Source: an uncultured Verrucomicrobiales bacterium
Lineage (GTDB): Bacteria > Verrucomicrobiota > Verrucomicrobiae > Limisphaerales > CANJSG01
Reading direction: 5' to 3'
Assembly: GCA_946480965.1 (NCBI GenBank)
Contig: CAMLMI010000326.1
Coordinates: 1-5,519, forward strand
DNA length: 5,519 bases
Shown here: one piece after another, positions 671-5,519 of the stretch
How positions within the stretch are numbered: position 1 is the first letter of the stretch
Layout of the letters: every line of letters begins with the position of its first letter
Notes under the pieces: model-generated
The model's input: only the letters and a program-made list of their open reading frames with translations
The model's database searches: none
What the model was told of the DNA's origin: nothing
Made by a program: the position numbers and the translations under genes

Positions 671-925
671 CTAGATCTTTCTTTTGATCCATTTGATCAA
701 GAGTTCCTCTAGAACTGATCGCGGGCTCCAATGTTTTGCAAAAAAAGTGCGCTCCTCCAAGGGTAAACTTTTTGCCGCAAGCAAGAATGCGCTCCGTCCC
801 CACGAATCCATTCCCATTGCGTGTTCCTTTAGTTCCCGGAGCCAATCGGAGTGCTGTCCCAGCCGGGCCGCCAATATCACTTCCCGCTTTATCTCTGACC
901 CTCCGTTCTCGTAATGCTCCGTCAA
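671..925 (-). CDS. C-terminal helical segment of the reverse transcriptase, in the -1 frame
   Basis: This 84-codon frame starts with a TTG that overlaps the RT stop codon by two bases (TTGA). It encodes a charged, helix-rich sequence with WLRELKEH, WGRSAFLLAAKSLPLEE and FFAKHW, ending KWIKRKI. The pattern 'W-x-R-x-A-(hydrophobic)-x-A-x-x-x-L-P-x-x-E-R-x-x-x-x-x-W' is what I expect at the very C-terminus of UG/Abi-lineage RTs, after their helical repeats. Joined to the upstream frame it gives about 489 residues, a normal length for such RTs, whereas 405 is short. The upstream part of this frame closes at a stop (944-946), so any shift must occur between about 943 and 922. One extra base in the T-run (minus strand, 926-924) would restore a single protein. 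Alternatives are translation from TTG by coupling, ribosomal frameshifting, or a pseudogene or sequencing error. I see no canonical X XXY YYZ slippery heptamer. Confidence 0.7.
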   Translation of the reverse strand: MTEHYENGGSEIKREVILAARLGQHSDWLRELKEHAMGMDSWGRSAFLLAAKSLPLEERTFFAKHWSPRSVLEELLIKWIKRKI

Positions 926-2139
926 ATCTGAAAAGTGATCGCCTTAAGCAGGCGATCCGAGACGCCACTTATGTCAAATTCGCCAGCTAAGGCAACCGAG
1001 AGCAGATAGTGACAAACAGACGACAGCGCAGGAATCATACGATCCATATTGTCCAAACAGAACACAACTCCTCCCGGATGCCCTGTTTGAGTGAGGCGGC
1101 GCAGAAACCAGCGAAGGCGAACAAAATCTACAGATCCACTAGAGAGATAGTCTTCGAGTATTCGCTCAATCGATTCTCTAGAAATTATTCTGAAATCTTC
1201 CTGCGATAGCTTGCTTAATGTAATTGTCGAATACGGATTCCCTCCAGAATACTTCCTGATCACGGAAATCAATTCCGATTCCTTTTCGCTGATTGGGCGA
1301 TCTTCAATCATTTCTTTAGCATGAGCTACTATTTCGCTCTTGTTGAGAAATGCAGTTTTGCTCTTGTTGAGAATCAACCTTTGCTGTGAATCCAGAACAC
1401 CGGCGATTGTGTAAAGGTGCTTTTGGCAATCAGTTTTGTTCTTTCCGAAGACCACAATGTCGTCGACATACCTAATGAACGTGATGCCCCGGCTCTTGAG
1501 GGCGTTGTCTAGAGGGATTAGCGTCGCTTCAGCGAGCAAGTGAACAGCATGAGGCCCCACTGGTATCCCTCTGGAAACTTTCGCCGTTAAGCTTTCCAAA
1601 AGGGAAATTAACCACTTAATAGATTGATTCTGGAATCCAGAGTCGATCAGTTGGTTTTCGAGAGTGTGGTGGTAAATCTGATTGTAAAAGTCAGAGATGT
1701 CCAAGACTAGAGCCGCTTCATGCCATGATCCAAGCCGGGCGCATTGTTTCCAGAATGGCGTCCAATCGTGATTCCGATTGTAAAGCCAACCGTCGATATG
1801 GGGATCAAATCGGTTGCTAAATACAATATTCTCGGTTACCGGAATTCGTCGTTGTTCTATAAGATGCCCGCATTCGTATATCAAACTTGTGAGCAACACG
1901 CTATCTAGCGGGTTTAGCTGGGTCGCTCTGCGAAACGAGACCTCATCCTTTGGAACCATGAAGCGCCGAGCCGGCTCTGGGGTGAAATCAGAGATGCTTT
2001 TCGCAGTCAGTGCAGCGACGACCTCGGTTTCCAAGATCGAAAGCGCTTCAATCTCAGCCGCCCACGGAAAGAGATCTGAATCGCCAATGTTGGAGAGGTG
2101 TTTCAGGGCCCACTTAATCGAATCTGGTTTTAGAACCAT
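922..2139 (-). CDS. Reverse transcriptase of the UG/Abi lineage (candidate defence-associated RT)
   Basis: RNA-directed DNA polymerase of 405 residues in this frame. Visible motifs, in order: an N-terminal RT0/1-like block RRATQLNPLDSVLLTSL (70-86); motif A with LVLDISDFYNQIYHH (144-158; D147 first metal ligand); motif B RGIPVGPHAVHLLAEA (190-205); motif C YVDD (224-227; D226 and D227 metal ligands) followed by IVVFG; and the post-catalytic LNKSKT Lys block (257-262). The IPVGP motif B and the C-terminal helical region, with no group II maturase domain and no retron-type VTG or NAxxH motifs, place it with UG/Abi RTs. Several of these are known anti-phage systems (DRT, AbiA, AbiK); I cannot name the subgroup. 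The start is ATG at 2139 with no clear Shine-Dalgarno, 77 bases after the integrase stop and co-directional with it. The protein stops just before its expected C-terminal segment, which continues in the -1 frame (671-925). AT-rich compared with its right-hand neighbours, consistent with transfer. Confidence 0.88.
   Translation of the reverse strand: MVLKPDSIKWALKHLSNIGDSDLFPWAAEIEALSILETEVVAALTAKSISDFTPEPARRFMVPKDEVSFRRATQLNPLDSVLLTSLIYECGHLIEQRRIPVTENIVFSNRFDPHIDGWLYNRNHDWTPFWKQCARLGSWHEAALVLDISDFYNQIYHHTLENQLIDSGFQNQSIKWLISLLESLTAKVSRGIPVGPHAVHLLAEATLIPLDNALKSRGITFIRYVDDIVVFGKNKTDCQKHLYTIAGVLDSQQRLILNKSKTAFLNKSEIVAHAKEMIEDRPISEKESELISVIRKYSGGNPYSTITLSKLSQEDFRIISRESIERILEDYLSSGSVDFVRLRWFLRRLTQTGHPGGVVFCLDNMDRMIPALSSVCHYLLSVALAGEFDISGVSDRLLKAITFQI
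937..957 (-). repeat. 8-bp hairpin just before the RT frame break
   Basis: On the minus strand GATCGCCT and AGGCGATC form a perfect 8-bp stem with a five-base loop (GCTTA), followed by ACTTTTC. It lies inside the last 15 codons of the RT frame, 5' of the T-runs where the frame changes. The stem-plus-short-T-run shape resembles a weak intrinsic terminator, but it falls within coding sequence and T-richness is low. Upstream placement is not the usual arrangement for stimulating -1 frameshifting, where structures lie downstream. The hairpin is seen directly; any role is inference. Confidence 0.5.
1336..1373. repeat. 14-bp direct repeat, 24 bases apart, inside the RT gene
   Basis: GCTCTTGTTGAGAA occurs at 1336-1349 and again at 1360-1373. 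The 24-base offset keeps the frame, so the protein shows a duplicated LNKS (residues 257-260 and 265-268) just after the palm motifs. This may be a small in-frame duplication of eight codons or convergent codon use; the first copy (LNKSKT) fits the expected conserved Lys block. Confidence 0.6.
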
Positions 2140-2216
2140 TTTAATTTGGGCTTAATTGTTCCGCCTTGTTGACATGTGAGGTTCTTGGAGATGTCCCAAA
2201 TCCCCTTTGCGTTCAA
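2140..2216 (-). other. Integrase-RT spacer with nested inverted repeats; possible leader or small structured RNA
   Basis: The 77-base gap between the integrase stop and the RT start is bracketed by TTAATTG (2152-2158) and CAATTAA (2214-2220, overlapping the integrase stop), an exact 7-bp inverted repeat. Inside it GACAT (2171-2175) and ATGTC (2191-2195) form a second inverted repeat. I see no strong Shine-Dalgarno before the RT ATG and no convincing -35/-10 pair on the minus strand. Some DRT systems carry a non-coding RNA template upstream of the RT, so the gap deserves a structural check, but it is short and AT-rich pairs can occur by chance. It may simply be an operonic spacer. Confidence 0.3.
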
Positions 2217-3335
2217 TTAAATTTCCCGATCTGGCGCAATTCCCCAATACGCTGATGCTTGATCTCTTGTAACCAGGGCCTTGTAGTGTCGATGCAGCAT
2301 GTCAAGTGAATGCCCAAGCATCGTCGCCACCCGTTCCGCGCTCCCGCATTCCGCCAGCCAATAGCTCGCTGCGCTGTGCCGGGTGATGTCCTTCGGCCAG
2401 TCCTTCCACCCCAACGCCTCCCGCATCCCGCGATAGGCCCGACGACGGGCTTCTTGGTGCAACGGAAGGTCGCTTCCGTTGCGTTGGGCGAACCTGAGCC
2501 ATTCTAGCGCAGAAGGCTGCGGGTAGACGATCCGCCGTCGCCGGACTTTGCTGGTCTGGGCCTCTACAACCACCAAACCTTCGGCGAGCTGGATTTGATC
2601 CCATCGGGTTTGGGTGGCTTCTTCGGGCCGAAGCCCGCACAGCGTCGTCAGAACAAACCACGCCAGCGCCCGAGGGCGTTCCTGACAGAGCCACTTGAGG
2701 CAGGTTTCGAGCTGTTTCGGGGTGAACACGGCGGGGGGCTTTTCAACCCGTTTGACCCGTTCGACTTTCTCGACCGGGTTTTCGGCGACCCATCGCTTCC
2801 TTAGGGCGAACGAAAAGAGAGTCGAGATCATGGCCCGAAAATGTGGCCGCGACTTCGGCGGAATGTCCTCAAGAAATAGGTTCACCTCAGCCGACGTGAC
2901 CCGGTCGATCTTCGCCTCTTCCCTGCCCTTCGTGAACCGCCGGAGGCAGGAATCGAGGTGGTCTACGTATCGGCGAGCCCGACCTGATTCCAGTTTGGCG
3001 CTTCCAAGTTGGGACAAGGCGACTTTCAGGGTGGGCGCGGTGCTCTCCGGTTCCTTGGGCGGTTCAGCCTGGTAGGTGGTGACTACTTTCAGAAGGTCCA
3101 AATTTCGGCGTTGCGACTCGCGATGGACCAAGACGAGTCGGATTTTCTCGTCGACGGTCAAATCCCTCCAAGCCTCCGCGATCTCCTGCATGTCCTTCTG
3201 GACCTCTTTCGCCAGTTGATCCGCTTCTGCCTTCGAGCCAAAGAAGGAGCGTTCCCGAATCCCGCCAACCCGGCGGTCGACCACCCAAACGCTCTTCCCA
3301 CGAAGAAGCGTGGAACGAACAGTTACCTTGCCCAT
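2217..3335 (-). CDS. Tyrosine recombinase/phage-type integrase
   Basis: Site-specific recombinase expected to excise and integrate the element by cutting DNA through a covalent 3'-phosphotyrosine. With the start chosen here it has 372 residues. An N-terminal arm-binding-like region (GKSVWVVDRRVGG... with a SKAEADQLAKEV helix) is followed by a core-binding helical domain (about 102-195) and the catalytic domain: R236 (LCGLRPEEA), K263 (QTSKVRRR), R319-H320 in KDITRHSAASYW, H342 (MLGHSLD) and the nucleophile Y351 (HRHYKAL). The first His of the usual H-x-x-R is Asp (D316). The start is the ATG at 3335 because AGGGAGGG lies five bases upstream; an in-frame ATG at 3380 would add 15 residues over that site and the 11-bp repeats, and is less likely. 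It lies beside tRNA-Pro, reads away from it, and is followed by the RT gene in the same direction. GC-rich, unlike the RT. Confidence 0.93.
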   Translation of the reverse strand: MGKVTVRSTLLRGKSVWVVDRRVGGIRERSFFGSKAEADQLAKEVQKDMQEIAEAWRDLTVDEKIRLVLVHRESQRRNLDLLKVVTTYQAEPPKEPESTAPTLKVALSQLGSAKLESGRARRYVDHLDSCLRRFTKGREEAKIDRVTSAEVNLFLEDIPPKSRPHFRAMISTLFSFALRKRWVAENPVEKVERVKRVEKPPAVFTPKQLETCLKWLCQERPRALAWFVLTTLCGLRPEEATQTRWDQIQLAEGLVVVEAQTSKVRRRRIVYPQPSALEWLRFAQRNGSDLPLHQEARRRAYRGMREALGWKDWPKDITRHSAASYWLAECGSAERVATMLGHSLDMLHRHYKALVTRDQASAYWGIAPDREI

Positions 3336-3662: not shown

Positions 3663-4157
3663 TCACACCACCGCAGCGTCGTTCAGCACCGCCACGGCCA
3701 AACGTTCGGTCGCGTGCTTTTCCGCCACCGCCCGGCGCAGGCGGATCGCTTCGGCGGCGAACACCTCGCCGGGACGCAACACCGCCGATCGCAGCACGAA
3801 CTCCGCGAGACACGAAGCCACCAGGGAGAAATGCCGAAGCCGGAACGCCCTCACCTCCGAAGCGGCGATCCCCGTTCCAGCCGTCATCCAACGCACTGCG
3901 GGATTCTGCTTGGCCTCGCGTTCGACGTCTTCCGAACGGAACCACCCGCGCGCATAGCACAGGACCATCGCCCCTAGGAGCACTTCCGCGCGTTGGCGTT
4001 GATCCCGAGGCAACCGCGACGGGATGAGCGGACGTTCCACGAATTCCCGCGCCACCTCCATCGCCAGCCCCACGCTCCGCGCCTCCACGGACGAGACGGA
4101 GCATCCGGTGTCGGTATCGGCTTGGCTCGGGGCGGAATCGGTGTCGGCAATGTTCAT
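3663..4157 (-). CDS. Small protein resembling a transposase N-terminal (DUF772-like) domain
   Basis: A 164-residue protein. After a low-complexity acidic Ser/Asp/Thr-rich N-terminus (1-25), the segment from about 34 to 125 is helical. It contains LLGAMVLCYARGWFRSEDVE (60-79) and then NPAVRWMTAG with EVRAFRLRH (85-109). That layout ('...LCYA-G-RSSR-IER--x-NPAFRWL-G-...-FR--H') is what I know from the N-terminal domain of IS5/IS1182-type transposases. There is no following DDE catalytic domain; the C-terminus is a basic helix (AIRLRRAVAEKHATERLAVAVL, in two halves around 137-158). It may be a domesticated or truncated transposase fragment, or a lineage-specific DNA-binding protein. The ATG at 4157 has no strong Shine-Dalgarno; M33 is an alternative. 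It is divergent from metH and upstream of tRNA-Pro on the same strand. A longer overlapping minus-strand frame (3631-4413) is arginine/glycine-rich and looks like a GC shadow. Confidence 0.65.
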   Translation of the reverse strand: MNIADTDSAPSQADTDTGCSVSSVEARSVGLAMEVAREFVERPLIPSRLPRDQRQRAEVLLGAMVLCYARGWFRSEDVEREAKQNPAVRWMTAGTGIAASEVRAFRLRHFSLVASCLAEFVLRSAVLRPGEVFAAEAIRLRRAVAEKHATERLAVAVLNDAAVV

Positions 4158-4404: not shown

Positions 4405-5519
4405 GTGAGCCAATCACCGATCTACACCGGCCAAGGCGCCGCTCTGGAGCGCCTGTTGCAGCAGCGCATCGTCATCATCGACGGGGCAATGGGCACGACC
4501 ATCCGAACCTACGGCAAGAAGGAGGCGGATATCCGCGGCACGCGTTTCGCCGATTCGAAGAAGGACCTGCTCAACAACGGCGACCTCTTCTCGCTCACGC
4601 AGCCCGAGATGATCTGCGACATTCACCGGCGCTTTCTAGAAGCCGGCGCGGACATCATCGAGACCAACACCTTTTCCGCCACGAGCATCGGCCAGAGCGA
4701 GTTCTTCGTGGACGACCCGCGCGAGCACGGCGGCCGTAAGGATCCGGCGTTTTACCAGAAGATCATCGAGGACAAGTTCCTCAACGACCTCGCGTGGGAG
4801 ATCAACGAAGTCTCTGCCCGCCAGTGCCGCGAATGGGCCGACCGCGTTGCGAACAAGGACGGCAAGCAACGCTTCGTCGCCGGTGCGATCGGGCCGCTGA
4901 CGGTGTCGCTCTCGAACTCGCCGGACGCCGACGACTCGGGCTTCCGCGTCGTGACGTTCGATCAGGTGAAGCAGGCCTACATCAATCAGGTCCGTGCGCT
5001 CATTAAAGGCGGCTCCGACTTCCTGCTGGTGGAAACCATCTTCGACTCGCTCAACGCCAAGGCGGCGCTGGTGGCGATTCAGGAAGTCTTCGATCAGGAT
5101 AACGTCCGCCTGCCAATCTCCATCTCCGCCGCCGTCGGTCGCGGGGGCGAGACGATGATCTCCGCGCAGACCATCGAGGCGTATTGGAACGCGGTGAAGC
5201 ACGTGAAGCCGCTCTCCGTCGGCCTGAACTGCTCGCTCGGGCCCGACCTCATGCGGCCGTTCCTCGCGGAGCTTTCCGAGAAGTCCACCGCTGCGATTTC
5301 CTGCTACCCGAACGCCGGATTGCCCAATCCGCTTTCACCGACGGGCTTCGACCTGAAGCCGGAAGACATGGGCCGGTTCCTCGGCGAGTTCGCGCAGAGC
5401 GGTCTGGTGAACATCGCCGGCGGTTGCTGCGGCAACACGCCGGAACACATCGCCGCGATTGCCAAGGCGCTCGACGGACGGCATCCGCGCGATTTGATGC
5501 CGAAAGAATCCGGCACCGA
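4405..5519 (+). CDS. metH: Cobalamin-dependent methionine synthase, N-terminal homocysteine-binding domain (3' end outside window)
   Basis: Transfers a methyl group from 5-methyltetrahydrofolate via cob(I)alamin to homocysteine, making methionine; cytoplasmic. The first 371 residues are visible and cover the homocysteine-binding barrel. They include IDGAMGTT (25-32), GADIIETNTF, FVAGAIGPLT, LLVETIFDSLNAKAA, GLNCSLGPD (273-281) and NIAGGCCGNTPEHIAA. The zinc ligands expected for this domain are all present as C276, C341 and C342. Pterin, cobalamin and reactivation domains would follow outside the window. Compared with E. coli MetH there are about 20-30 extra residues near 100-124 (FFVDDPREHGGRKDPAFY region). 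The frame is open back to 4372; GTG 4405 is chosen because it places the barrel start at the usual distance, and no strong Shine-Dalgarno is visible. The gene is GC-rich and intact as far as seen, and is probably host core. Confidence 0.95.
   Translation, partial: MSQSPIYTGQGAALERLLQQRIVIIDGAMGTTIRTYGKKEADIRGTRFADSKKDLLNNGDLFSLTQPEMICDIHRRFLEAGADIIETNTFSATSIGQSEFFVDDPREHGGRKDPAFYQKIIEDKFLNDLAWEINEVSARQCREWADRVANKDGKQRFVAGAIGPLTVSLSNSPDADDSGFRVVTFDQVKQAYINQVRALIKGGSDFLLVETIFDSLNAKAALVAIQEVFDQDNVRLPISISAAVGRGGETMISAQTIEAYWNAVKHVKPLSVGLNCSLGPDLMRPFLAELSEKSTAAISCYPNAGLPNPLSPTGFDLKPEDMGRFLGEFAQSGLVNIAGGCCGNTPEHIAAIAKALDGRHPRDLMPKESGT

Follow-up and report, generated by a model that had tools for sequence, protein, structure and literature searches.

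The DNA analysed here, a stretch of 5,519 nucleotides that we call the window, carries on its minus strand a reverse transcriptase (RT) gene whose conserved C-terminal part lies in another reading frame. The question that this locus raises is whether a one-base slip, a protein made in two pieces or a broken gene lies behind this arrangement. A first-pass annotation, made from the letters alone, had described a UG/Abi-type RT split by a one-base frame change, and its description of the parts was accurate. The RT open reading frame (ORF) occupies positions 2139-922 of the minus strand (405 residues), the conserved C-terminus lies at 943-671 in the -1 frame, the two frames are open together between 943 and 922, and they overlap in the TTGA at 925-922. 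In a profile search, the RT piece matches the PADLOC family Drt8 (PDLC03783) over profile positions 3-382 of 493 with an E-value of 1.3e-120, the next-best family being RT_UG21 (E 1.5e-43), and the tail matches positions 408-492 of the same Drt8 profile (E 8e-15). The catalytic aspartates D147, D226 and D227, which are invariant in a 28-sequence alignment, are all present in the window RT.

We scored 7999 candidate homologues, and the statements below refer to the best 120 of 832 matches. Where their source names are given, these proteins are called hypothetical protein, RNA-directed DNA polymerase or retron-type RT. The top match, P0001, has 514 residues and is 64% identical to the window RT, and its residues 427-514 are 65% identical to the tail. 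Among the 120, 113 have 509-524 residues and five have 540-545, so that 118 fall between 509 and 545, and the remaining two are shorter (465 and 436). The homologues thus generally have a length that accommodates a continuous RT and C-terminal helical domain, which the window copy does not have: both of its pieces match DRT8, but 25 residues are absent and the last 88 are out of frame. Judged by profile, the window RT is a DRT8, a UG/Abi defence-associated RT, and it appears to be a broken copy by descent rather than a working member.

The absence of the 25 residues became apparent in an alignment of the junction with all 120 listed homologues, in which the window's RT and tail were entered as separate pieces. 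Residues 1-401 of the RT ORF are homologous to the relatives, and its final four (TFQI) are out-of-frame read-through up to the stop codon; homology of the tail begins at the codon 940-938. In 119 of the 120 homologues, exactly 25 residues separate RT residue 401 from the first homologous tail residue, the sole exception being P0055, in which the tail is absent. In the window, the start of RT codon 400 is 2 nt from that of the first homologous tail codon, whereas this interval takes up 27 codons (81 nt) in the homologues. The absent DNA, about 79 bp at a junction that we place at 936-943 on the minus strand, therefore covers the 25 residues and, as spacing, one more residue and one base. As the anchors are 2 nt apart instead of 81, one event would be a 79-bp deletion, and this is the simplest event by sequence comparison; alternatively, the deletion may have been in frame and the shift may stem from a one-base change of its own. 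No remnant of the 25-residue segment was visible at the window's junction, and searching all of the window for it gave weak matches only, the best (E 0.098) lying inside the integrase gene described below.

These counts do not fit the proposal that a single extra base in one of the T-runs would restore an intact RT of 489 residues. We rejected a one-base change, as the loss comprises 25 residues in addition to the shift of frame. The restored protein would be shorter than the 118 homologues of 509-545 residues. Even with the frames joined, whether through recoding or an added base, the product would not be a normal DRT8, since a helix at residues 410-422 (numbering of P0001) would stay missing. 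The two frames together do not make up the full protein, as would be expected of a programmed -1 frameshift: the 25 conserved residues are encoded in neither frame.

A perfect 7-bp inverted repeat with a 7-nt loop spans the junction at 937-957 on the minus strand (GATCGCC-TGCTTAA-GGCGATC, then ACTTTTC), and is predicted to form a hairpin of about -14.6 kcal/mol. A scan of the window for inverted repeats with arms of 7 and loops of 3-10 gave nine entries at four places. The hairpin is also faintly terminator-like. It may have promoted the deletion.

The same hairpin could, however, have misled an assembler or sequencer, in which case the gene is intact in the cell and about 79 bases were dropped from the record. 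We consider such an assembly or consensus fault improbable, though it is the likeliest of the alternatives. It would agree with the full conservation of the tail and with the 7-bp stem at the junction, the closest gene among the best 120 of 832 matches is only 64% identical, and public DRT8 records that are split by probable sequence faults do exist. On the other hand, judging from protein similarity, RT homology ends at about 937 and the tail starts at 940, so that a stretch shared by the two flanks could comprise at most about 6 nt. The collapse of a long direct repeat is thus unsupported, as judged by protein rather than by ancestral DNA.

The split public records come from Rhizobium leguminosarum, and they illustrate a different kind of lesion. 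Strain Ta9k has an unsplit DRT8-like gene of 1545 bp, whereas on plasmid pRL12 of strain Ta6k (CP090202.1; positions 1501-3044 of our locus L068) a shorter RT is annotated beside a separate hypothetical protein that contains the tail, as in the window. Over 4191 bp, the Ta6k and Ta9k loci (L068 and L069) differ by no substitutions and by four one-base indels, all of which lie in homopolymers of 5-6 nt and every one of which is shorter in Ta6k. The split in Ta6k is thus probably a sequence error in the record. The Ta6k break lies elsewhere in the gene and goes with one-base homopolymer indels, whereas about 79 bp are gone from the window. We therefore rejected a homopolymer error as the origin of the window's lesion, which also counts against an assembly fault of that type.

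If the gene is broken, the state of the tail bears on when this happened. We regressed tail identity on RT identity over 7021 pairs of homologues, leaving out P0055. The mean residual of the window's tail is +0.8 points (standard deviation among the homologues 1.8), and 85 of 119 homologues have lower values. Among columns conserved at 90% or more, the window keeps 14 of 14 in the tail and 98 of 103 in the RT. By these measures, the tail is as conserved as would be expected of an intact relative, and its decay has not begun. Either the lesion arose very recently, or it is a fault of the assembly, or, which is unlikely, the tail is still in use. Of the explanations first offered for the preserved tail, a very recent mutation thus agrees with the undecayed sequence, whereas a sequencing error in a T-run does not agree with the loss of about 79 bp.

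Use of the tail would require the RT and the tail both to be made, by re-initiation at the TTG or by -1 slippage on TTTT, and to act together. A functional tail would explain its conservation, the TTGA overlap permits coupling, and re-pairing in the -1 frame is possible on the four T nucleotides found there. Pairing with the ribosome is weak before the overlapping TTG (-3.9 kcal/mol, although the RT's own ATG has merely -0.6). Starts inside the tail pair somewhat better (ATG 817 and ATG 811, -5.6; TTG 784, -7.6 kcal/mol), but they would yield fragments, and either full product would be without the conserved helix 410-422.

The relatives likewise do not favour a protein in two pieces. The junction is reached by 40 of 43 genome loci, each of which runs through it in a single frame. 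The continuity that the first-pass annotation had proposed to check thus holds for every locus that extends this far, and none of the 40 is split here. In 36 of the 40, the match has neither a stop nor a frame break. Two others have one stop each (L026 and L041), one has a frame break near residue 105 (L035), and one, whose locus contains N, shows a gap in the RT part (L040); all of these lie away from the junction. The three loci that stop short of the junction (L037, L042 and L043) have matches ending 76, 171 and 563 bases before the end of the locus, and a break at the junction is possible in these. The counts of loci and of proteins overlap and hence are not independent (for example, L001 is P0015 and L006 is P0059). 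In genomes of two phyla, the RT has matches at E <=1e-20 in 6 of 387 and 4 of 294; the matches in four of these ten genomes are at least 34% identical to P0001 or P0059 over nearly their full length, and all four cross the junction in one frame and without a stop, two of them being from the genomes of L030 and L039. A pattern scan of IMG/VR found no such RT, phages gave one weak match (25% identity over 56%), and plasmids gave 196 records, four of them with at least 80% coverage.

A search for a free-standing tail protein with a 90-residue tail query gave three candidates, none significant; this search requires shared 5-residue words and admits similar lengths only, and is thus not exhaustive. 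Programmed frameshifting and a two-piece RT are therefore unsupported, with helix 410-422 absent either way and the relatives unsplit at this point, and we consider it very unlikely that the two products are made and act together. Marginally less credible still is a more elaborate version, in which a shortened DRT8, minus one helix, reassembles from the RT and a tail that is translated on its own (through coupling or frameshifting) into a regulated two-piece defence RT. The copies that are broken elsewhere (L026, L035 and L041) suggest occasional decay or sequence error within DRT8. The window's break was not met again in the relatives, with P0055 perhaps excepted. P0055, a protein of 436 residues encoded on a 2.5-Mb contig, loses homology near the same residue (about 401-405).

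We considered what the lesion removes using a structure model of P0001 (pLDDT 93.3, pTM 0.91), that is, of an intact homologue and not of the window ORF itself. The model shows an RT domain and, behind it, a series of helices. What the window lacks corresponds to residues 402-426, which hold helices 404-407 and 410-422. In a 74-sequence alignment, E410, Y411, S418, L419 and F420 are each conserved at 90% or more, and over 119 homologues four columns of the stretch reach this level. The frame change additionally takes away six helices, from 429 to 512. In fold comparisons, the model aligns over 441-455 residues with DRT6, DRT4, UG15 and AbiK, over 403 with Abi-P2 and over 381 with AbiA, and with DRT2 and DRT9 over about 250 residues, which is the RT core only. 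An alphaRep (HEAT-like) helical domain thus follows the RT core in the model, with the long alignments to AbiK, DRT4 and DRT6, although residues after 381 were barely tested in this comparison. By Z score, the RT cores of group II introns (about 23) and of retroelements rank highest. The likeness to class 1 UG/Abi RTs hence rests on aligned length, and the solved RTs with a helical domain (DRT6, DRT4/UG15 and AbiK) are only 12-14% identical to P0001. A fold match by itself does not show function, but by analogy we infer that intact DRT8 works like the class 1 enzymes.

According to PMC13174585, class 1 systems bear an alphaRep domain, and those studied synthesise DNA with no nucleic-acid template. 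It is through this domain that DRT3b assembles, and mutations at the trimer interface largely eliminated DNA products. These statements weigh against the idea that the 405-residue RT works in its truncated form, with a helical domain that can do without its end and a tail that is fresh debris. That idea gains from the intact RT part, with its conserved columns largely kept as counted above, and from P0055, in which the tail is lost near the same residue; however, the tail is kept in the other 119 listed homologues, so that tail-less homologues of around 405 residues, which would have argued against a split protein, are represented by P0055 at most. PMC11077055 adds that AbiA without its C-terminal HEPN domain was inactive, though this is a different domain and its authors caution about other defects. 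We thus regard a functional truncation as highly doubtful, on a level with the reassembled two-piece defence RT.

The surroundings of the gene are those of a possible genomic island. The order on the minus strand is a tRNA-Pro (CGG) gene at 3581-3504, a tyrosine recombinase (integrase) gene at 3380-2217, and then the RT with its tail frame. The integrase matches PF00589 above the cut-off of that model (E 1e-7); it is XerC-like, yet far below the cut-off of the XerC model. The tRNA gene is probably the attachment site of the island. No second copy of the tRNA region of at least 10 bases occurs elsewhere in the window, so the far end of the island would lie outside. A search for an empty site found four host-like regions that match the window in one flanking host gene only, and no tRNA was found in them. 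This gene, which we take to be metH-like, lies on the plus strand, and its first part, at 4405-5519, falls in the window and has a homocysteine S-methyltransferase domain (PF02574, E 8.8e-77). We compared it within the phylum of G001, which is the genome of locus L030 and belongs to Ereboglobus, a genus of Verrucomicrobiota, and with four other genomes. Within that phylum, 53 of 387 genomes have a match at E <=1e-100, the best being 81% identical, whereas identity is at most 50% to two Planctomycetes; with a third it is 29%, and with a member of Puniceicoccaceae 49%. On this comparison, the host appears Verrucomicrobiota-like.

The remaining ORFs are less informative. That at 3663-4157, tried as a marker of the host, has weak matches only, in 4 of 288 genomes, and a 5'-open ORF at 1-444 on the plus strand, convergent with the RT tail, matches nothing in Pfam or NCBIfam at E <=0.001. 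As a DRT8 partner, PMC10952713 tabulates a Cap17 SLOG/PNP protein. We found no such partner among the scanned ORFs of the window, which is cut, nor among ten neighbour ORFs of seven of the 43 loci. In this small sample (ORFs listed for 12 of the 43 loci, and the same ten neighbours searched with Pfam), no partner gene recurs. In Microbulbifer sediminum, an intact DRT8 has a SIR2-domain protein (L010:7743-8927) next after it on its own strand, which is a possible defence neighbour.

We conclude that the locus is probably a DRT8 RT gene, with an integrase beside tRNA-Pro in a Verrucomicrobiota-like host, that was recently inactivated by one deletion of about 79 bp. This reading builds on the 25 missing residues, the frame change, the conserved tail and the continuity in relatives, all of which are observed. 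The intact gene would encode an RT domain and an alpha-helical HEAT-like repeat (alphaRep) domain, and its protein would assemble into an oligomer and make DNA without a nucleic-acid template, as in AbiK-like class 1 systems. The deletion, perhaps aided by the hairpin at the junction, would remove one helix of the alphaRep domain and the frame change six more, and the resulting protein of 405 residues would be expected not to assemble and hence to be inactive.

The window thus most likely holds an ordinary DRT8 gene that was recently broken, or misassembled, through ordinary gene decay or an assembly fault, and its significance beyond this one locus is slight. It carries a caution: where a well-preserved tail sits in a different frame, a one-base slip or a split gene comes to mind first, and only a residue count against homologues brings out the deletion, here of about 79 bp. 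As for DRT8 itself, PMC12596737, PMC13182921 and PMC13314766 mention it once each, and PMC13213688 lists a dedicated mechanism as 'not yet established', so that the helical domain would be worth testing on an intact relative.
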